Shown here piece by piece: positions 1 to 10,938 of a stretch of 64,000 nucleotides of DNA (the stretch's first letter is position 1; each line of letters starts with the position of its first letter). The translations under genes were made by a program, and so were the position numbers. The stretch is from Carallia brachiata. Taxonomy: Eukaryota > Streptophyta > Magnoliopsida > Malpighiales > Rhizophoraceae. The stretch is taken from contig JADCRB010000028.1 in assembly GCA_021464245.1 (NCBI GenBank), positions 6,885,612 through 6,949,611 on the forward strand, written 5' to 3'. The notes beneath the pieces were generated by a model. The model saw only the letters and a list, made by a program, of their open reading frames with translations. It ran no database searches and was not told where the DNA came from.

Positions 1-15
1 CGTACCACATATAAG

Positions 16-525
16 ATGTTGCTAGGACGACCGTGGATTCATGGAAATGGAGTTGTGCTCTCAAGCCTGCATCAGTGCTTCAAGTACTACAATGGTGGCG
101 TTCAAAAGGTCAATGCTGACTTAAAGCCGTTCGATGATGCTGAATCACATTTGGCGGATGCAGTCTTCTACACCGACACAGACAATCCGGAGATCATTCC
201 ATCAAAAGCTACTTGGACTGGGGGCATCCACAAAAAGGGAAAAGCTGTCGAAGAACCTGCCAATGCCCAACCCCAGGCTCCAACAAATGAAAAGCTGCCA
301 CAGCTGAACTCGTCGAAGGATGTTGCATCTTCAAGCTCCACTCCAGTCCTACGCTATGTGCCGAAGTCACGACGCTCAGAAGGTCAACCCCCTTTCTCTT
401 ATTGTATTGATCCTAAACAGGAGCAAGGACATAGCCAACCCAAAACAAAGGAGCTGCACAACCTGAAGGAGACTTACACTCTGCCGATACCAAAGATTGA
501 GCCGGTTTTGCTTCAAAACCATTAA
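16..525 (+). pseudogene. retropepsin C-terminus and PR-RT linker of the Tat element
   Basis: The frame opens with LLGRPWIH, the conserved motif near the end of plant Ty3/gypsy aspartic proteases, followed by SSLHQ and a K-rich stretch. The catalytic DTG triad would lie upstream, outside the window. The remainder is a low-complexity Pro/Ser/Lys-rich linker with the motif LRYVPKSRR, as is common between PR and RT in Tat elements. The frame stops at 525 and continues in other frames (about 535-1015), so this is one piece of a broken polyprotein rather than a complete gene. Confidence 0.8.
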
Positions 526-658
526 AAGGCTTCGTCAAACCACACACGGGGGCAGTCGAAGGCGGCTCACTTCCAGAAAGAAGAACACATGAAGGATTTG
601 ATCCTAATGCATACAAGCTTTTGGCAAAGGCGGGCTATGACTTTCAAACCCGAGCACA

Positions 659-2040
659 ATGGGTACGCTGCCGTCCACACATGGCGCCGCTTCTCAAACA
701 TCACAGTCCCGACCTGGCTTAGGCTATCAGGAGAAGTCACCTGTGCGGATCACGCTAAAGAGCCGAAGCCGAGCAGCTGATGCACGTGCCATCACCACCA
801 CCACCAAACAAGACAGGCTTATCCAGTCAAACAAAGAAGGTGAAGTCAGAGGTTCTGCATTTCATGTCACAATTAGCGAGGAGGCTGATTCCGACTCATC
901 AGATGGTGAAGTGAAGGAGGCTCCCCCGGAACTTGAAGATGGTGGCCAAGCAACTGTTGATGAACTCAAGGAGGTCAATCTTGGCTCTCCGGAAGATCCT
1001 CGACCTACATTTGTAAGTGCTTTACTTACTAGAAGAAGAGCAAGAATATGTTCAGGTATTAAGTCAATACAGGGACGTGTTCGCATGGAGTTACAAAGAA
1101 ATGCCTGGACTTGACCCAAAAATTGCGGTGCATCGTCTAGCAGTAAAGAAGGGTTCGTTCTGTCAAGCAGCCACAACGACGGTTCCGCCCGGAACTCATT
1201 CCACAAATCGAGGAGGAGGTGAACAAGCTGATCAATGCCGGCTTCATCCGAGAGGTCACCTACCCAACGTGGATTGCCAACATTGTCCCGTAAGAAAGAA
1301 GAATGGACAGTTGAGGGTATGTGTTGATTTTCGAGATCTTAACAAGGCCTGCCCGAAAGATGACTTTCCATTGCCCATAACGGAGATCACAGTCGATGCA
1401 ACAACGGGTCACGAAGCATTGTCTTTCATGGATGGTTCTTCAGGCTATAACCAAATCAGAATGGCACCAGAAGACGAGGAGTTGACAGCATTCCGCACCC
1501 CAAAAGGTATATACTGCTACAAAGTTATGCCGTTTGGATTGAAAAATGCTGGCGCCACTTATCAACGTGCTATGCAAAAAATTTTTGATGACATGCTGCA
1601 CAAGATTGTAGAATGTTATGTTGATGACTTAGTTGTAAAGACTAAGAAGCGCAAAGACCACCTCGAGGATCTCAAGACAGTGTTCGAAAGACTTCGGAGG
1701 CATCAGCTCAAAATGAACCCTCTCAAGTGCGCATTCGGTTTTTTTTGTGGAAAGTTTCTTGGGTTCGTGGTGCGCCATCGTGGAATCGAAGTTGATCAGT
1801 CAAAGGTTGAGGCAATTCAAAAGATGCCTGAACCTAAAAACCTGCACGAGCTGCGAAGTCTACAAGGAAAGCTGGCCTACATTCGCCGTTTCATCTCCAA
1901 TTTAGCTGGGAGATGTCAACCTTTCCATCGGTTGATGAAGAAGGATGTCAACTTCGAGTGGGACGAAGCTTGCAGCAAAGCCTTTGAGAGCATAAAGAAG
2001 TACCTTTCCAATCCACCGTCCTGCTCCAATTCAAGGAAAG
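659..2040 (+). pseudogene. reverse transcriptase domain of the Tat element (frameshifted)
   Basis: An acidic linker (659-1015) leads into a frame starting about 1017 with DVFAWSYKEMPGLD, the usual entry to the Tat reverse transcriptase. Conserved blocks follow: VDFRDLNKACPKDDFPLP, the SFMDGSSGYNQI block, the FRTPKGIYCYKVMPFGLKN block, then the catalytic YVDD at 1617-1628, and finally the thumb/connection region. Between about 1150 and 1290 the frame slips out and back, so some 40 residues are scrambled before RKKNGQLR. Another shift at about 2035 moves into the RNase H frame. RNA-to-cDNA synthesis was the original role; this copy is broken. Confidence 0.9.
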
Positions 2041-2043
2041 TCG

Positions 2044-2914
2044 TTGATTCTCTACATTGCAGCGCAGGAAAGATCTTTGGGAGCCTTGCTTGCACAGGAA
2101 AACGAGCAGGGAAAGGAAGTTGCCCTGTACTACTTGAGCAGAACACTAAACGGTCCGGAGCTGAGTTATTCGCCCATTGAAAAGACATGTCTAGCACTGT
2201 TCTTTGCCATTGACAAGCTGAGGCACTACATGCAAGCTCACACGGTACGTCTCATTGCCAGAGCTGATCCTGTCAAATATATCTTATCTAGACCAATCTT
2301 GTCAGGACGACTTGCCAAGTGGGCAGTAATCCTACAAAGCTACGACATTGTCTACGTGCCTCAAAAAGCAGTCAAAGGACAAGCTCTAGCAGACTTCCTT
2401 GCAGATCACCCTGTTCCGTCAGATTGGGAGTTCACAGATGATCTTCCAGATGAAGAGGTCTTTTACATTGAGACACTACCACCATGGACGATGTTCTTTG
2501 ATGGTGCAGCAAGGCGTGATGGTGCTGGTGCCGGCATAGTGTTTGTCACTCCTCAACGACAAATACTACCATATGCTATCATTCTCGGTGAGTTATGTTC
2601 AAATAATGTTGCTGAATACCAGGCTTTGATCATTGGTCTTCAAATGGCTGTCGATATGAAGATTCCAACTATAGAAGTCCATGGAGATTCCCAGCTCGTC
2701 ATCAACCAACTTACAGGATTGTATGATGAAGAAAGAGGACCTTGCGCCTTACCATCAACGTGCTCGACAGCTAATGGATGAATTTGAAAGCATCACCTTG
2801 GAGCATGTGCCTCGACGAGAAAACACTCAGGCAGACGCGTTGGCTAACCTGGCCACTCTCTTGCAAAGTCAGAAATCCAGGCTACAGTTGTTGCCGTATG
2901 CCAGAAATGGATAG
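2044..2914 (+). pseudogene. dual RNase H region (RT-RNase H plus additional RNase H) of the Tat element
   Basis: The first domain (2044-2420) shows YYLSRTLNGPE, YSPIEKTCLALFFAIDKLRHY and ADFLADHP, the RNase H fused to RT in Ty3/gypsy elements. A second RNase H-like domain begins about 2485 with WTMFFDGAARRDGAGAG and continues through NNVAEYQALIIGL and HGDSQLVINQL. It then shifts frame at about 2730 and ends with ENTQADALANLA. This second domain is the feature that places the element in the Tat group. Catalytic Asp/Glu positions (DGA, AEYQAL, GDSQL, QADALA) are recognisable. The frame break and stop at 2914 make this a relic. Confidence 0.88.
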
Positions 2915-4219
2915 TGCCACAGAAGGATGATGAAGAAACTACAGCAGCCAACGCTGTATCTGTACGTCTCGCGGAGGACGAGATTGGCGCCAACCAATCA
3001 TTGACTACTACAGCACGGGAAGCTGCCCGAAGATCGTCGTCATAAGACAGAAATTCAACGACGAGCTCCCCGCTTCATATATCTCAAGGATGCTCTGTAT
3101 CGAAGGTCTTTTGATGGAGTTTTCTTCGCTGCCTAGCAATGAAGAGGCAAAACAGCTCTCACTGAAGCACATTCTGGTGTTTGTGGCGGACATCAATCGG
3201 GCCTAAGTTGCACTTCCAACTCAGAAGGATGGGATACTACTGGCCAACCATGGTACGTGATTCAATTGAGTTTGCTAAAACTGTCAAGCTTGTCAATTTC
3301 ATGCGAATTACATACATCAACCACCGGAGCCACTGCATCCAACTGTCTCATCCTGGCCCTTTGAAGCTTGGGGTCTCGACTTAGTGGGGCCCTTGCCAAA
3401 GTCATCCCTGGTCACCTGTACATCCTCGCAGCAACACTACTTCTCAAAATGGGCTGAAGCCATTCCACTTAGAGAGGTAAAGAAGGAGCATGTTGCCAAT
3501 TTCATCCGGACTCAGCTGATCTATCGCTATGGAGTCCCTCGATTCATCATCACTGATAATGGTAAGCAGTTCTACAACAGCTTAATCGACAAGCTCTGCG
3601 AGAAGTTCAAGTTCAAGCAGTACAAGTCATCCATGTACAATGCCCCAGCAAATGGCTTGGCCGAAGCATTCAACAAGACCTTATGCAACCTGTTGCGGAA
3701 GGTAGTCTCTAAATCCAAAAGAGATTGGCATGACAGAATTCCGGAGGCATTATGGGCGTATCGTACAACTTACCGGACTCCAACACAGGCGACGCCATAC
3801 TCACTTGTCTACGGTGTCGAAGCAATACTGCCGTTGGAAACACAGATTCCATCCTGCGCATGGCTGTTCTGGAAGGACTCACACAGGAGGAGAATGCTCG
3901 CCTACGTCTGGATGAGTTAGAAGCTCTCGATGAAAGGAGGCTCGAAGCACAACAGCAACTTGAGTGCTACCAAGCCCGGCTCACCAACACGTTCAACCGC
4001 AGGGTCCGCCCTCGATCTTTTCAAGTTGGAGACCTTGTTCTTGCAGTGCGACGGCCCATCAACATGAAGCATCGGCCTGGTGACAAGCTTACTTCCAAAT
4101 GGGACGGGCCATACTTAGTGCAGGAGGCCTACACTCACAACGCTTACATGCTGTCAGACCAAGAAGGCGTCCGAATCGGCCCAATCAATGGTAAATTTCT
4201 GAAACAGTATTATGTGTAA
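2915..4219 (+). pseudogene. integrase of the Tat element (frameshifted)
   Basis: The zinc-binding N-terminal part is recognisable only in pieces spread over different frames (3100-3380), including RRMGYYWPTM. The catalytic core is clearer at 3384-3850: KWAEAIPLREV, then ITDNGKQF with the second acidic residue, NGLAEAFNKTL with the glutamate, and RIPEALWAYRTTYRTPT. A frame change near 3850 leads into the C-terminal part (3752-frame), with SFQVGDLVLAV, DKLTSKWDGPY and a natural-looking end KQYYV at 4219. No chromodomain is visible, as expected for Tat. The original role was insertion of cDNA into the genome. Confidence 0.88.
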
Positions 4220-4223
4220 ATAT

Positions 4224-4626
4224 GTTTAAAAAAAAAAAATCAAAAAAAAAAAAAAAAAAAAAAAAAAATCAAAAAAAAAAAAAAAAAATCAAAAAAAAAA
4301 AAAAAAAAGTTCGGAAGTCCCGATCTGAAAGTCCAAGCGAAAATCCAAACCCAAACACTCAACCCAAATCAAGTCCAAACCCAAACCAACCCAAATCCAA
4401 AAGTCCAAGTCCAAAACCCAAACACTCGACCCAAATCCAAAAGTCCAGACTCAAAACCCAAACACTTAACCCAAATCCAAAAAAATCCAAGTCCAAAACC
4501 CAAACACTCGACCCAAATCCAAAAATCCAAGTCTAAAACCCAAACACTCGACCCAAATCCAATCCAAAACCCAAAACCCAAAAATTCCAAGTTCCAGACA
4601 CAGTCCAGAACCCAAGTTCAAAATCC
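4224..4626 (+). repeat. A-rich tract followed by a CCAAATCC/AAACCCAAACAC minisatellite
   Basis: Immediately after the integrase stop comes an A-rich run with TC interruptions (about 4228-4308). It is followed by roughly 300 bp of tandem repetition of a unit of about 40-45 bp built from AAAACCCAAACACTCGACC, then CAAATCC and an AAGTCC block. The reading frames across this stretch are pure repeat translation and are not a gene. It separates pol from the homeobox ORF. Confidence 0.85.
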
Positions 4627-4674
4627 AATCCAACTCCTGGCCCGCATGAGTATAAACTGTGAACGGCCCAAAAA

Positions 4675-4682
4675 TATAAAAG
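4675..4682 (+). promoter_or_regulatory. possible TATA box upstream of the homeobox ORF
   Basis: TATAAAAG lies 88 bases before the ATG at 4770, in a short non-repetitive segment (4627-4769) after the minisatellite. A start site about 30 bases downstream would give a leader of about 60 bases ending in the C/A-rich context ACAAGAAAG before ATG. Position and sequence fit a plant core promoter. Whether it is used is unknown. Confidence 0.4.
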
Positions 4683-4769
4683 CGACGGAGGGTTTGAGTC
4701 TGAAACTCAGCATCAGTCTCAACCGATCTTCACCACACACCAGACCTTTGCTCCTCTGCCACAAGAAAG

Positions 4770-5393
4770 ATGGAACCAGTTGCAGAACCTCAAGACAAGG
4801 GAGAAGAAAAGTCACCCCGCACAAGGTGGCAACCAACCGTGGCGCAACTGCAAATTTTGGAAGAAGTCTTCCACAACAATGGAGGTATTACTCCTAATGC
4901 ATCTCAAATTTACCAACTTGTCTCACGATTGCGCCCGCTCGGGGCAATCGAAGGCAAAAATGTGTTTTATTGGTTCCAGAATCGGAGAAGCAGGAAGAAA
5001 CCAGCACTGAGAGCTGATTTTTCCAAAGAACAGTCTGCCGTTCCAATGGTAGATCCCACCGGTACAGCCTCGCCCTCAAATGAAGCAGGTCCGAGTTCTT
5101 CCACTGAAATGGTCTCTCCACGGTATGTTCATCAAAGCCGTAGCCCATGGGAGCAGGCATGCCGGTCCTGGTGGTCTTACGGAGTCAGCCAAGGGTTCAT
5201 CCCTCCTAGGTACTTAAGTCTAGGAGGACTTTTTCTAGCAGAAAGGAGTCATTCCGGCGAAACTTTGTCTCTCTTTCCAGAATATTCCGGTAGCATCAAC
5301 CAGCCGGAAAGCGACGTCGACGTTGACGTCAACATCATCGGCCCACCAGACGAGGTCGAGCTTGACTTGGAGTTGCACCTCGGGCCCCTCTAG
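4770..5393 (+). CDS. WUSCHEL-related homeobox (WOX) protein carried by the retrotransposon
   Basis: The 207-residue frame is uninterrupted and has no intron. Residues about 17-79 form a WUS-type homeodomain: RWQPTVAQLQILEE in helix 1, the extended NNGG loop typical of WOX, then RLRPLGAIEGKNVFYWFQN. The third helix ends NRRSRKK, where WUS-clade proteins usually have NHKARER. Residues 165-172 read TLSLFPEY, a WUS-box (TLxLFP). An acidic run DVDVDVN follows at 182-188, then LDLELHL at 198-204, an EAR-like repression motif. WOX proteins with WUS-box and EAR are nuclear transcription factors, mostly repressors working with TOPLESS-type corepressors in stem-cell control. The ORF lies between the integrase and the 3' LTR, on the element's strand. 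Capture of a host WOX cDNA by the element is inferred. Expression is unknown. Confidence 0.85.
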   Translation: MEPVAEPQDKGEEKSPRTRWQPTVAQLQILEEVFHNNGGITPNASQIYQLVSRLRPLGAIEGKNVFYWFQNRRSRKKPALRADFSKEQSAVPMVDPTGTASPSNEAGPSSSTEMVSPRYVHQSRSPWEQACRSWWSYGVSQGFIPPRYLSLGGLFLAERSHSGETLSLFPEYSGSINQPESDVDVDVNIIGPPDEVELDLELHLGPL

Positions 5394-5407
5394 GACGGCC
5401 GACAAGA

Positions 5408-5654
5408 TAAGGTGCAACGACTTCGGCAACGACTTCTGCAGTACGCGGCAACGACTTCCGCAGCACACGGCAACGACTTCTGCAACACACGGTAACGACT
5501 TTCGTGACACGCGTCAGCCGCTGCCTCTTTTGTCTCTTATGCAGGAAAGGGACATGGCGACTTCTGCCACACACGGTAACGACTTTCGTGACACGCGTCA
5601 GCCGCTGCCTCTTTTATCTCTTATGCAGGAAAGGGACGTGGATGGCCCTACTCG
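5408..5654 (+). repeat. short tandem repeats and an 84-bp duplication 3' of the homeobox ORF
   Basis: Just after the WOX stop, GCAACGACTTC plus a CGCAGCACACG-like half is repeated several times with a period of about 22-24 bp (5408-5500). A longer segment then occurs twice with an offset of 84 bp, at about 5487-5570 and 5571-5654. It contains GTAACGACTTTCGTGACACG and CTCTTATGCAGGAAAGGGAC. The copies differ at few positions. No protein is implied. Confidence 0.8.
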
Positions 5655-5676
5655 ATTCTGCGTACCTTCTTTTTGA

Positions 5677-5712
<36 letters not shown>

Positions 5713-6410
5713 TTTATTTTATGTATATATATCCTGCATGTCCGAGCCATCATACTCACCCCTCAGCTCTTCTTTCTCAAAAGAAAATGGCTAGTCTCTG
5801 TACTTGTCCCAGGAAGTTCTTTGATCAAGAAGTTGGAGGCGCACGAGCTAAGAAAAGAAGGAGTAGTCTTCCTCGAGGGATCCCTAACGCCATCGGTGTC
5901 ATGGAGCTCCAACTACTCTCCTTAGTTCACATCTAGCAGCGAGCCGAGAAGTTTGATCGTCCTCCTGGATCTACAAATGCAGCGACGTGCAGGGAAGTTC
6001 CAACTACTCTCCTTACGTCAAAGCAGATTCAGGAATCATCAACCATACACCCGTCTCTCTGTGCACAGGTCTTAAAGTTCTGTATTGTTCTGGGCCTTCC
6101 TCTGGGGAGGTTCAAGTTCTTTGCCTACCGGATCACCTCACCAGAGCTCTGGAACTTTAAGAGATATAAAAAATCCTTTGCGGGCTGGAAGCTCGAATGC
6201 ACCTGGAGCCAAGGCTTCAATTTCTATATTGGCTGGGTGCTAACTTTCTCAAGATCGTATCGGATTCCTATTGCGATCCAACAACAGCAGGCATAGTCAA
6301 AGATAGAAGACTCCAAGATTCAATGTTCGTCAAGACGTTTCCAAATTTCAAACTGGACTTCAAGACTCGGTTCGAATCATCTCTGTAAATTTTTTTTCTT
6401 ACCGACCCTT
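5655..6410 (+). other. 3' internal region of the retrotransposon, no recognised gene
   Basis: The segment starts with an A-rich run (5681-5708), then holds a short frame with ATG at 5787 that gives about 49 residues with a basic AKKRRSSLPRG patch and stops at 5936. A 16-base string CCAACTACTCTCCTTA occurs twice (about 5907 and 6000), suggesting local duplication. A TA-rich GAGATATAAAAAATCC lies near 6161. I do not recognise any domain. It may be further captured sequence or ordinary 3' untranslated DNA of the element. Confidence 0.4.
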
Positions 6411-6420
6411 GAAGTGGGGG
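6411..6420 (+). other. polypurine tract of the retrotransposon
   Basis: GAAGTGGGGG directly precedes the LTR start at 6425. A purine run ending in G's just before the 3' LTR is the plus-strand DNA synthesis primer in LTR retrotransposons. This fixes the upstream LTR as 3'. Confidence 0.75.
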
Positions 6421-6424
6421 CATT

Positions 6425-7211
6425 TGTAAACATCCTTTTCAAATTAAAAAAAAAAAAAAAAAACAAAAAAAAAAAAAAAGATTGGCAGCCACATAATCTT
6501 GAATTTCAAGATTGGTGGCTAAGGTCCTCTCTGGAGGGCCTATAAAAAGGCCCTCCAGCCTCAGTTCAAAGGAACATTCAGCAAATCTGAAAACAGAAAA
6601 ATTCAGAGAATTTGAGAGAAAAAGAAAATTTTGAAAATCTCTCAAGAAAATTTCTATTTTTCCTACGTGTTTTACTCTGCAGTATTCTCTCCTAATTCAT
6701 TTTTGAGAAATATTTCAGGGGTAAACCCCAAAAAAATTTGCTGTTTCCATTCTAAAAATTATTTTAGGTTTATTTCTCGGATCGCTCTAGATCTGAATGT
6801 TATGAGAATATAGATCTAAAAATAACAAATTACTACAAATCCGGCTGGGATTAAGCCTCATACGGCCCTCAGCAAATCCGGCAAACTCATCCGAGAACAA
6901 GTCCATTCGACCCTCGGTGAAATTAAGTCAGATCGGCTCATATCAGGTCTCTGCGGTTCTTAACCGTAGTCAAAACGTCCAAATCAGATCCAGTTCAGTC
7001 TACCCAGTTCAAGAAAAAGTTGTGGAATTTATTTCTGTCAAGATCAAGCTCGTGCAGCCCTTGACGGAGTCAAAAAAATGAACACTAATCGGAGGATCTA
7101 CGAAGATCGACCCCACGTAAATTTTCTTTTATTTTTACAATATTTTTTATTGTAATTTGTTTCTGTATTTTTGAGTCTAATTGTTTTAGGTTCGAAATTT
7201 ACGCCGTTACA
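6425..7211 (+). repeat. 3' LTR of the Tat retrotransposon
   Basis: The proposed LTR opens TGTAAAC and closes CGTTACA, a short TG...CA inverted terminus (TGTAA/TTACA), about 787 bp long. Inside is a TATAAAAAGG box at 6541, followed by a likely transcript start about 25-30 bases on, as in a U3-R arrangement. The 5' limit is well supported by the adjoining polypurine tract. The 3' limit is uncertain, because no second LTR is in the window to compare and the sequence at 7198-7220 resembles a primer-binding site. Confidence 0.7.
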
Positions 7212-8600
7212 AGGAGAACAGCAGCAGCAATCGTTAAAATTCCAACCCGCTGTTGTTTGAATATCACTCCGGACATAGCAGTAGAAACAACAGGCAGAGA
7301 GGAATACATGTTTCCGGGAATCTGGACGTGTGTTTTTTTTTTTCAGAGAAAATTGCTAAATAGAAGTTGCCAGATTAGATTCGATTGTCACTTATTGGCC
7401 ACTCCTGTTGACTGGGATGCTTGATTGACGGGAAAATGAAGGAAACTAGAAAGAGAAAAAAAAACCAACATTTTAAGGAATAAATAAAATGGAGAGGATT
7501 TATAATTTAACTTATATTTTTTATTAAGTATGATTTACTCATAATCTTACACCACATAATTAGTAGAGTTTATTTGAAATAAAAAAATAAGTTATGTGGT
7601 ATTAGATTATGAATAAATTTTAAATAAGTTGTGTAGTATTAAATTATGAATAAATTTACTTATTTAAAAAGATAATAAACTTAACAAGTACTATAAATAG
7701 ATTGATAACTAGGAAAACTGATTTAAGCCCTTATCTCTCATCCTTAATATGGATAATGGATACAACTTGAATACATTCTCATCTTAATGAATCACAACCA
7801 TTATTGTTGGGCAAATAACACAAAAAGACATGCAAAAACAAAAATTTATATTCATTATTGTATATTTATGAATTCCTGTTTGAAATTTATTCATTTGTTA
7901 TCTCTATTTTCTCTTTTCTATCCTCTGTATCAAATATGTGTGTATGTGTGTATGCGCGTGCGTGTTGAAGAACTTTAAATTATTAATTTTGAAGAAAAGT
8001 ATTTTAAGGAGACTTGAAAATTTTAGAACTGGGATGGGAGAAACGGATTCGTAAAAAGAAACGGATTCGTAAAAACGTATAAGTGAAGAGATGAGTTCAC
8101 TTTTATTATCAAAAATAGATATAAACATTATGAAAATTTTTCACGAAGTTTTACGAAAATTTTTAAATTTTAATATAACACTAAATCTACTTGAAATTTA
8201 AAATAAAAATTAAATTATAAAAAATTTCTTACTACATCAATAAAAAAAATTAATTCATGAAAAATGGTGATAAAATTCTTCGTGCTGTATACCACTGTTT
8301 TATTGTCAATCACGCTCCTCCTCTTCCTTACAATCTATTCAAATCCAGTACGTTGAGCTTTGCCACTCAAACCACTGAAAAAGGAATCTCCTAACAACCA
8401 AAGCAAACCACGTTGAATATATGTACCCGAATGGTCTTACCAATTTCCTTAACTGTGTCCGAGACGGATAGGTTAGAATATCGTAGCTAAATTGTTGACA
8501 GCGATAAATAATTCAAGCCCATATATTTCTGTTCAACGAAGGCGGCCATGGAAATACTCAAAGCAAAGATTTAATCTCAACATTTTTAAAAAACTAATAA
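7212..8600. other. AT-rich non-coding DNA
   Basis: I see no supported gene here. An imperfect inverted repeat sits at about 7525-7620. A short direct duplication ACGGATTCGTAAAA occurs at about 8043-8076. Confidence 0.6.
7525..7620. repeat. small imperfect hairpin, possible MITE remnant
   Basis: TTACTCATAATC followed by TTACACCACATAA on the left is mirrored on the right by TTATGTGGTATTAGATTATG. The arms are about 25 nt around an A/T-rich loop. A near copy of the right arm follows at about 7625-7660. No clear target duplication was found. Confidence 0.45.
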
Positions 8601-10620: not shown

Positions 10621-10938
10621 CGGGGGATAACTAACTTTTTAGATCTAAACTTTTGTGATTTTTTCTATTTGAAACCTAAACCTTTTAAGTTTTCTATTTA
10701 AGGTCTAAATCTTTATTTTTTGTTCTATTCAAGTTCTTTTACAGTAAAACCGTTAACTTTTCCGTTAACTTTAATCCTATTTCTGTTAGATCTAACAGAA
10801 AAATTAACGGTAAATCATACAAAAGGACTTGAATAGAAAAAAAAATAAAGGTTTAGACTCTAAATAAAAAACTTAAAAGGTTTAGATCTCAAATAGAAAA
10901 AATTACAAAAGTTTAAATCTAAAAAATTGGTTACCCCG
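10621..10938. mobile_element. MITE with long terminal inverted repeats, nested
   Basis: The left arm from CGGGGGATAACTAAC and the right arm ending GGTTACCCCG are inverted copies over about 140 bp each. Shared blocks include AGATCTAAACTTTTGTGATTT and CCTTTTAAGTTTTCTATTTA. A short centre reads GTTAGATCTAAC. Runs of seven T flank both ends (10614-10620 and 10939-10945) and may be the target duplication. It would fold into a near-complete hairpin. It has no coding capacity. Confidence 0.85.

Follow-up and report, generated by a model that had tools for sequence, protein, structure and literature searches.

A WUSCHEL-type homeobox gene, probably an accessory gene, in a multiplying family of Tat-type LTR retrotransposons in Carallia brachiata

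Introduction

The window analysed here is a stretch of 64,000 nucleotides from Carallia brachiata (Rhizophoraceae; contig JADCRB010000028.1, positions 6,885,612 to 6,949,611 of the forward strand). On its plus strand, at 4770-5393, it carries an intronless open reading frame (ORF) of 207 codons, running from ATG to stop, for a predicted WUSCHEL (WUS)-type transcription factor of the WOX homeobox family. The ORF lies inside a complete Tat-type Ty3/gypsy element with long terminal repeats (LTRs), and copies of the same arrangement occur throughout the genome. The best explanation, which we favour with moderate confidence, is that a multiplying family of such retrotransposons has this ORF as a resident accessory gene; that WOX resides there as a selected accessory gene is, taken by itself, likely. 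A further step, from accessory gene to changed cell fate, is tentative.

A WUS-type ORF inside a complete element

The WOX ORF contains a Pfam Homeodomain match at residues 17-77 (E 1.2e-12), and when solved structures are ranked by sequence against it the WUSCHEL homeodomain comes first (E 1.3e-18), followed by STENOFOLIA. The predicted model has a mean predicted local distance difference test score (pLDDT) of 63 overall and of about 95 across the homeodomain; a fold search with this model returns WUS-HD chains at all of ranks 1-6, with probability 1.00. The homeodomain aligns with that of WUS without gaps and shares the WUS-type extra residue. With a WUS-box and a C-terminal EAR-like motif in addition, the three protein features of a WUS-clade WOX protein are present, and the gene is WUS-type as judged by its architecture. 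Among 50 ORFs (that of the window and 49 others, all chosen to be stop-free), the WUS-box reads TLxLFP in 45 and ILPLFP in five, while the C-terminal LxLxL is found in every one. The base-reading residues of WUS are R38, Q89, N90 and R94 (PMC7203112); all four are retained in the window, and the pattern recurs in 49 of the 50 chosen ORFs. In a manual alignment S36 of WUS is replaced by R, a substitution that was made in WUS to favour TAAT (PMC7203112). Since the same ORF recurs throughout the genome, it does not owe its existence to chance.

The carrying element measures 10,453 bp (C88:6882370-6892822); the window starts inside it and holds roughly its 3′ two thirds. Its 5′ LTR of 786 bp lies beyond the window (L039:6759-7544) and aligns with the 3′ LTR with 773 matches, 9 mismatches and 9 gap columns. 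With 1.3e-8 substitutions per site per year, the rate for LTRs of rice, these mismatches correspond to an age of roughly 0.4 million years. The hallmarks of an LTR retrotransposon, namely paired TG..CA LTRs, a polypurine tract and a 5-bp target site duplication (TSD; AGGAG at both ends), are all present. The features are as follows.

1..4219, plus strand: 3′ part of gag-pol, with reverse transcriptase, RNase H, a second RNase H (read as aRH-type) and integrase (Pfam order RVT_1, RT_RNaseH, RVT_3, rve)
4220..4631, no strand: A-rich, poorly conserved spacer with CCAAATCC-type repeats (0.76 identity to locus L038 over 285 aligned bases, 4330-4631)
4632..4769, plus strand: promoter-like or 5′-untranslated module of 138 bp, abutting the WOX ATG (from conservation)
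4675..4682, plus strand: TATA box TATAAAAG, 88 bases ahead of the ATG (exact matches across loci)
4770..5393, plus strand: WOX ORF, predicted WUS-type transcription factor (207 codons; Pfam and structure matches, genome copies)
4818..5009, plus strand: homeodomain, residues 17-80, with the WUS-type extra residue (Pfam, structures; lowest dN/dS-type ratio)
5262..5279, plus strand: WUS-box TLSLFP, residues 165-170 (motif)
5361..5381, plus strand: EAR-like LDLELHL, residues 198-204, C-terminal (motif)
5394..6424, no strand: 3′ non-coding region, which includes a direct duplication of 84 bp (no second open frame common to the loci)
6411..6420, plus strand: polypurine tract GAAGTGGGGG (sequence)
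6425..7211, plus strand: 3′ LTR, 787 bp, TG...CA, with its own TATA-like stretch at 6541 (pairs with L039:6759-7544)
7212..7216, plus strand: TSD AGGAG (other copy at L039:6754-6758)

A preliminary description of this DNA had located an intronless 207-codon ORF with these three protein motifs on the element's own strand, between integrase and the 3′ end. Its coordinates hold: integrase lies upstream on the same strand, the purine tract and LTR start lie downstream, and Pfam, structure and motif evidence agree with the naming of the parts.

The element is assigned to the Tat lineage (Ogre/Retand type) because a second RNase H sits between RNase H and integrase; such an aRH between RH and INT is described as the mark of Ogre/Retand-type Tat elements (PMC6317226). 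The match read as aRH is RVT_3, at about 2497-2728, after RT_RNaseH and ahead of an integrase reading frame that begins at 3279. The rve match falls under its curated cut-off, and pol in this copy is interrupted by several frame changes. Upstream of the window, L039 holds a Retrotrans_gag match and a weak Asp_protease_2 match.

Two further aspects of the element concern its 3′ part. The direct duplication occupies 5474-5641 and is 96% identical between its halves, and 29 other aligned loci are gapped at 5480-5539. The window element also looks mosaic: its integrase is about 98% like that of the recently spread copies described below, and its 3′ part (best at 5720-6139) is closer to the pol-less copy L010. 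A candidate second accessory ORF after WOX (5592-6296, apparently split by one stop) was rejected, as no common open frame exists in 30 loci.

Copies across the genome and recent spread

The genome searched comprises 337.5 Mb in 164 contigs. A homeodomain search (best 150 of 1348 candidates scored) returned a large block of element WOX, and a search with the WOX ORF itself returned at least 150 matching places, 85-100% identical (150 of 150 scored, of 2306 first-look candidates). The WOX lists favour intact frames, and counts taken from the best-scored places are lower bounds. Among 30 WOX loci, the window included, the 3′ region is present in all 30 and integrase sequence in 29; integrase is absent from L010 and amounts to merely 188 bases in L032. 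A window-like LTR stretch accompanies 29 of the 30, L010 having LTRs of its own instead. At L032 (C132:1210272-1213889), WOX and the curtailed integrase are joined by an LTR-like stretch on the other side, directly upstream, a structure that reflects either a nested insertion or a deletion.

Loci were also picked by integrase (best 150 of 2360 candidates scored; the first eight read, the window's own included), and module and WOX sequence are present in 8/8. For forty of the 150 integrase places the lists contain a WOX match no more than 3.5 kb downstream, which is an undercount: for the first eight places they give one WOX and direct reading gives eight. Cross-reading of the lists yields at least 16 of the 150, including the window, with a WOX that is free of stops and complete or nearly so in length. 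In the first 14 integrase rows, 13 other places are 100% identical to the window's reading, the shifted-frame part included, which points either to a still-multiplying lineage with a shared integrase frame change or to a systematic assembly error.

The spread has continued until recently. Eighteen of the 50 ORFs compared are identical over all 624 bases, which shows recent spread of these burst copies, and the 138-bp module is identical in all 18 as well. Over 657 gap-free columns of 5781-6424, 17 of these copies together carry two substitutions, and the eighteenth, L037, has twelve differing columns, which are clustered. This count leaves out the A-rich spacer (59 of 348 columns variable) and 5394-5780 (11 of 266), where in our judgement the patterns look like misalignment. 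A special conservation of WOX, suggested by 18 identical ORFs against 1.6% flank divergence, was dismissed because the variable columns are mostly spacer or low-complexity and look misaligned, and since the WOX list favours intact frames.

The single copy without pol among those read, on C110 (L040:6354 to L041:2323), has LTRs of 886 bp with 17 mismatches, the TSD GTTGG, a 473-codon gag ORF and WOX. It is presumably a gag-WOX derivative moved in trans, and it is a case in which WOX was kept where pol was lost. Loci L079 and L080 (C117 and C161) have the same WOX differences from the window with identical counts, and represent either a recent duplication or a single insertion that the assembly shows twice.

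The preliminary description had proposed a WUS-type gene carried inside a Tat-type element and spread by it, and the LTR pair, the TSD and the many copies bear this out. It had also allowed that a host WUS/WOX gene might lie here with an element inserted beside or around it. The raw anatomy of a single copy, and nothing else, would suit such a gene. At this locus WOX is enclosed by an LTR pair and TSD, many other copies have the same gene at the same place (the setting is shared by 30 of 30 WOX loci, and all eight integrase-picked loci carry WOX sequence), and the intron-split host WUS genes lie elsewhere, at C65 and C90. A host gene at this locus is therefore refuted, and its probability is practically nil.

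Origin of the gene

The host WOX genes read, with names assigned by our own reading, comprise two each of WUS (L091, L092), WOX13, WOX1 and WOX4, and single WOX2, WOX3, WOX5/7-like and WOX8/9-like genes. WOX13 (L006/L070), WOX1 (L073/L074), WOX4 (L075/L076) and WUS (L091/L092) form pairs, as after a whole-genome duplication. In the host WUS genes the exon for the homeodomain is followed by a further open frame that holds the WUS-box. The element gene resembles these genes and Arabidopsis WUS in its extra-residue homeodomain, WUS-box, EAR-like end and base-reading residues, and differs in being intronless, in lacking F101 and in apparently falling outside the WUS branch of the tree. It has 32 of 63 homeodomain residues in common with host WUS, and is identical to host WOX3 in 35 of 70 alignment columns. 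In the WOX tree, built on 69 columns and subject to a long-branch warning, it has a branch to itself, 1.6-1.7 long, next to the WUS clade, with support of 98/94, or 100/100 when the WOX13 and WOX9 rows are left out.

No close parent gene was found among the host WOX genes read. Genes of mobile elements are often omitted from annotation. Outside the genome, a search of 5.8 billion proteins found no full-length relative among the 120 listed of 235 hits (from 396 candidates); the best listed match is 58% identical over 35% of the length. Host WOX9, by comparison, is closest to Erythroxylum (57%) among the best 120 of 1006 matches, with Vigna unguiculata at row 42 (50%), and host WOX3 is closest to Turnera and Durio among 120 listed proteins. 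Fresh capture of a host transcript was rejected on the distance to the host WOX genes read, from which the element gene is also separated by its long branch in the tree.

A promoter-like module ahead of the ORF

The 138 bp that abut the WOX ATG are conserved beyond their surroundings. Relative to L038 the module is 97.8% identical, against 89.5% for 930 bases downstream (Fisher p 0.0008) and 76% for the upstream spacer, compared over 285 bases. In four diverged loci compared with the window, identity is 91-99% in the module, 88-91% in WOX, 68-86% upstream and 77-87% downstream. The TATA box TATAAAAG is exact in 28 of 30 WOX loci, in all eight integrase-picked loci and in two of the four diverged loci. 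Among 20 further loci, many of which have little upstream DNA, the module is visible in nine, and none with at least 96 upstream bases is without it. In the pol-less copy at L040, strong homology to the window starts again at 4632, module included. The conserved, TATA-bearing module is probably the promoter of the WOX ORF, which may have its own transcription start near 4705.

Selection on the WOX frame

Selection was assessed from tree-based counts of nonsynonymous and synonymous change (dN/dS-type ratios) on the chosen ORFs, compared with 1000 simulations that kept the mutation spectrum. The 49 other ORFs begin with ATG, and their gaps relative to the window sum to whole codons. On terminal branches the whole-ORF ratio is 0.72, a value as low as this arising in 2 of 1000 simulations. 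Homeodomain changes number three nonsynonymous and seven synonymous on internal branches, and 37 nonsynonymous and 29 synonymous, plus one stop, on terminal branches. Between the window and L038 the ratio is 0.36 for the whole ORF (Fisher p 0.003), 0.11 for the homeodomain (p 0.0019) and 0.51 for the rest (p 0.16). Four older loci, of which L079 and L080 are possibly one insertion, have overall ratios of 0.37-0.62.

Because the first sample had been picked by protein similarity and was possibly biased, the test was redone on the seven other integrase-picked copies. Their pooled ratios, in which the comparisons share one reference and are not independent, are 0.54 against the window and 0.45 against L038 for the whole ORF, 0.21 and 0.10 for the homeodomain, and 0.77 and 0.65 outside it. 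For the integrase end a ratio exists in 26 of 27 comparisons and is 0.00-0.11 throughout, a 28th alignment being too gapped. The homeodomain, the DNA-binding part of WOX, is under purifying selection.

A number of observations pull the other way. Constraint outside the homeodomain is weak, and on internal branches the whole-ORF ratio of 0.67 was equalled or undercut in 50 of 1000 simulations. The homeodomain of the older loci has changed more with respect to the window (5-11.5 nonsynonymous and 5-7.5 synonymous changes). Stops occur in 39 of the 150 scored WOX places (our own count), despite a list favouring intact frames, and haplotype duplicates may account for part of the list. None of the seven other integrase-picked copies read has an unaltered WOX frame: six are left with ORFs of 12-103 codons, and L088 has a changed end. 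Of the 21 indels seen in these copies at stricter gap costs, 17 fall outside base runs of at least three; at those costs L085 has no such indel, yet it shows three larger deletions in the other alignment. The broken frames may stem from assembly errors. These copies match the window's integrase reading even across its frame shift, so they may represent one decaying sublineage, although for two more of the first 21 integrase rows, at ranks 10 and 17, the lists give a WOX free of stops. As to the protein, the residue at WUS F101, which is important for WUS dimers (PMC7203112), is A in the manual alignment, so DNA binding by the element WOX may be weak. Finally, WUS-type motifs are not in excess in the LTRs, spacer or 3′ region, which gives no sign of self-regulation.

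These points bear most directly on whether WOX is passenger cargo, a transcript picked up and merely copied without benefit to the element. The ratios outside the homeodomain and the seven defective frames fit such cargo, and gag-pol and LTR alone may account for the burst. It is harder to reconcile with a homeodomain ratio of 0.10-0.21 in copies picked without regard to WOX, with a module conserved above other non-coding DNA, with the lack of a close parent among the host genes read, and with the retention of WOX in a pol-less copy; we consider it rather unlikely. The distance from host WOX genes, the presence in diverged copies and the purifying selection on the homeodomain point instead to a long-resident accessory gene. 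The capture proposed in the preliminary description thus stands in that the gene is carried by the element, and for the same reasons is not supported as simple cargo from a captured host transcript.

What the gene may do, and its relation to known elements

If WOX is an accessory gene, it would be transcribed from its own TATA-bearing module, apart from the genomic RNA. The protein would enter the nucleus, bind WUS-type sites and recruit TOPLESS-type co-repressors via its WUS-box and EAR-like end, the two motifs by which TOPLESS is recruited. In the least certain step, the protein would act on shoot-meristem cells, from whose lineage the gametes arise, and would make them more stem-like or less well defended, to the advantage of the element, in a manner likened to that of retroviral regulators. 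Retroviral oncogenes and transactivators are cases of a mobile element carrying a host-like regulator of cell state; the likeness here lies in the host-like regulator, and the effect on the host cell is a proposal. That the lineage has domesticated a WUS-type regulator with its own promoter, and biases meristem cells so that new copies reach the gametes, is a speculative and somewhat doubtful idea, as is the view of this domestication as a plant counterpart of retroviral capture of regulators and oncogenes.

An alternative is that WOX is an old regulator of the element that acts on the element itself (LTR activation, integration or silencing) and not on cell state. Retand elements, surveyed in 617 assemblies, have an antisense extra gene, TRP28, in 97% of clusters, a predicted DNA binder proposed to regulate transposition (PMC11963269). 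The window element resembles them as a non-chromovirus Ty3/gypsy element of the kind that has extra ORFs between pol and the 3′ LTR, and, like the pol-less copy here, some Retand clusters are without gag or pol domains (PMC11963269). It differs in that a sense homeobox gene occupies the place of TRP28, for which no Pfam match was found in the six antisense frames of 4369-5613, in that the region from pol to the 3′ LTR is 2.2 kb long and not 2.9-6.6 kb, and in that the sense ORFs of Retand in that region encode no known domains (PMC11963269). The element is not called Retand because the usual antisense gene was not found. The shared position would suit a self-regulator; TGAA, TAAT, TGAATGAA, TTAATGG, TTAATGA, CACGTG and TGACA are not in excess in the two LTRs, spacer and 3′ region, and we regard self-regulation as rather unlikely.

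The preliminary description knew of no report of a WOX gene moved by an LTR retrotransposon, but one exists for Vigna, in a 2023 meeting report (Mob DNA) that reportedly draws on a bioRxiv preprint of 2022 (Naito and others). In Vigna marina and V. riukiuensis WOX genes are present in many copies, more than 1000 in V. riukiuensis, most of which are flanked by identical LTRs and by target duplications (PMC10714607); in the literature searched, this is the sole precedent for an LTR-borne WOX. The two systems are alike in these respects and differ in host, which here is a rosid outside Vigna; for the Vigna copies, the passages mention neither an element lineage nor gag-pol, an internal promoter or a test of selection (PMC10714607). 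Domestication of WOX by an element, if it took place, may have occurred separately in Carallia and in Vigna.

The Vigna case also raises the idea that the host has co-opted amplified WOX copies as dominant regulators or decoys, with selection acting for the host; the part of amplified WOX in coastal adaptation is called unknown there (PMC10714607). Intact frames with WUS-box-like and EAR-like motifs in all 50 ORFs chosen as stop-free would fit host use. Selection is seen, though, across diverged mobile copies beside near-identical recent ones, and many dominant stem-cell regulators should harm the plant, and we judge co-option very unlikely.

The nearest case of a captured domain is a Phalaenopsis Ty3/gypsy element with an ORF for an N6-methyladenosine (m6A) demethylase (2-ODD), alike as a Tat-family element with a working host-type domain and different in that an RNA-modifying enzyme takes the place of the transcription factor (PMC9289625). 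By word search, homeobox, homeodomain and WUSCHEL are absent from the main text of PMC7264820 and PMC11963269, and homeobox and homeodomain (WUSCHEL was not searched) from PMC6317226; extra ORFs counted in PMC6317226 have at least 250 codons, so a 207-codon WOX would escape it. PMC6482515 deals with elements near host WOX genes. As far as the literature searched goes, what is new here is a Tat-type element with its own selected WUS-type gene and likely its own promoter.

Surroundings in the window

The element lies at the edge of a cluster of NB-ARC leucine-rich repeat (LRR) resistance genes (RPS2-like and At4g27190-like) that, with LRR frames, spans 17710-61918 on the minus strand and includes one ORF of about 919 codons (NB-ARC match 5e-32). 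A neighbouring nucleotide-binding LRR (NLR) protein is closest to Hevea (50%) among the best 120 of 729 matches. An inverted repeat at 10624-10937 has arms of 117 nt that are 89% complementary and 80 nt apart, and long frames at 47.3-48.4 kb look like low-complexity repeats.

Implications

The extra genes of plant LTR elements are mostly of unknown function, whereas this one comes from a well-understood family of plant regulators; the DNA targets, partners and effect of the element WOX are therefore directly testable. Where elements carry WOX, a survey of a plant genome can overcount its WOX genes. If the element WOX changes cell fate, the family would be an example of a plant element that influences germ-line-forming cells, and every new insertion would scatter a possible dominant regulator.
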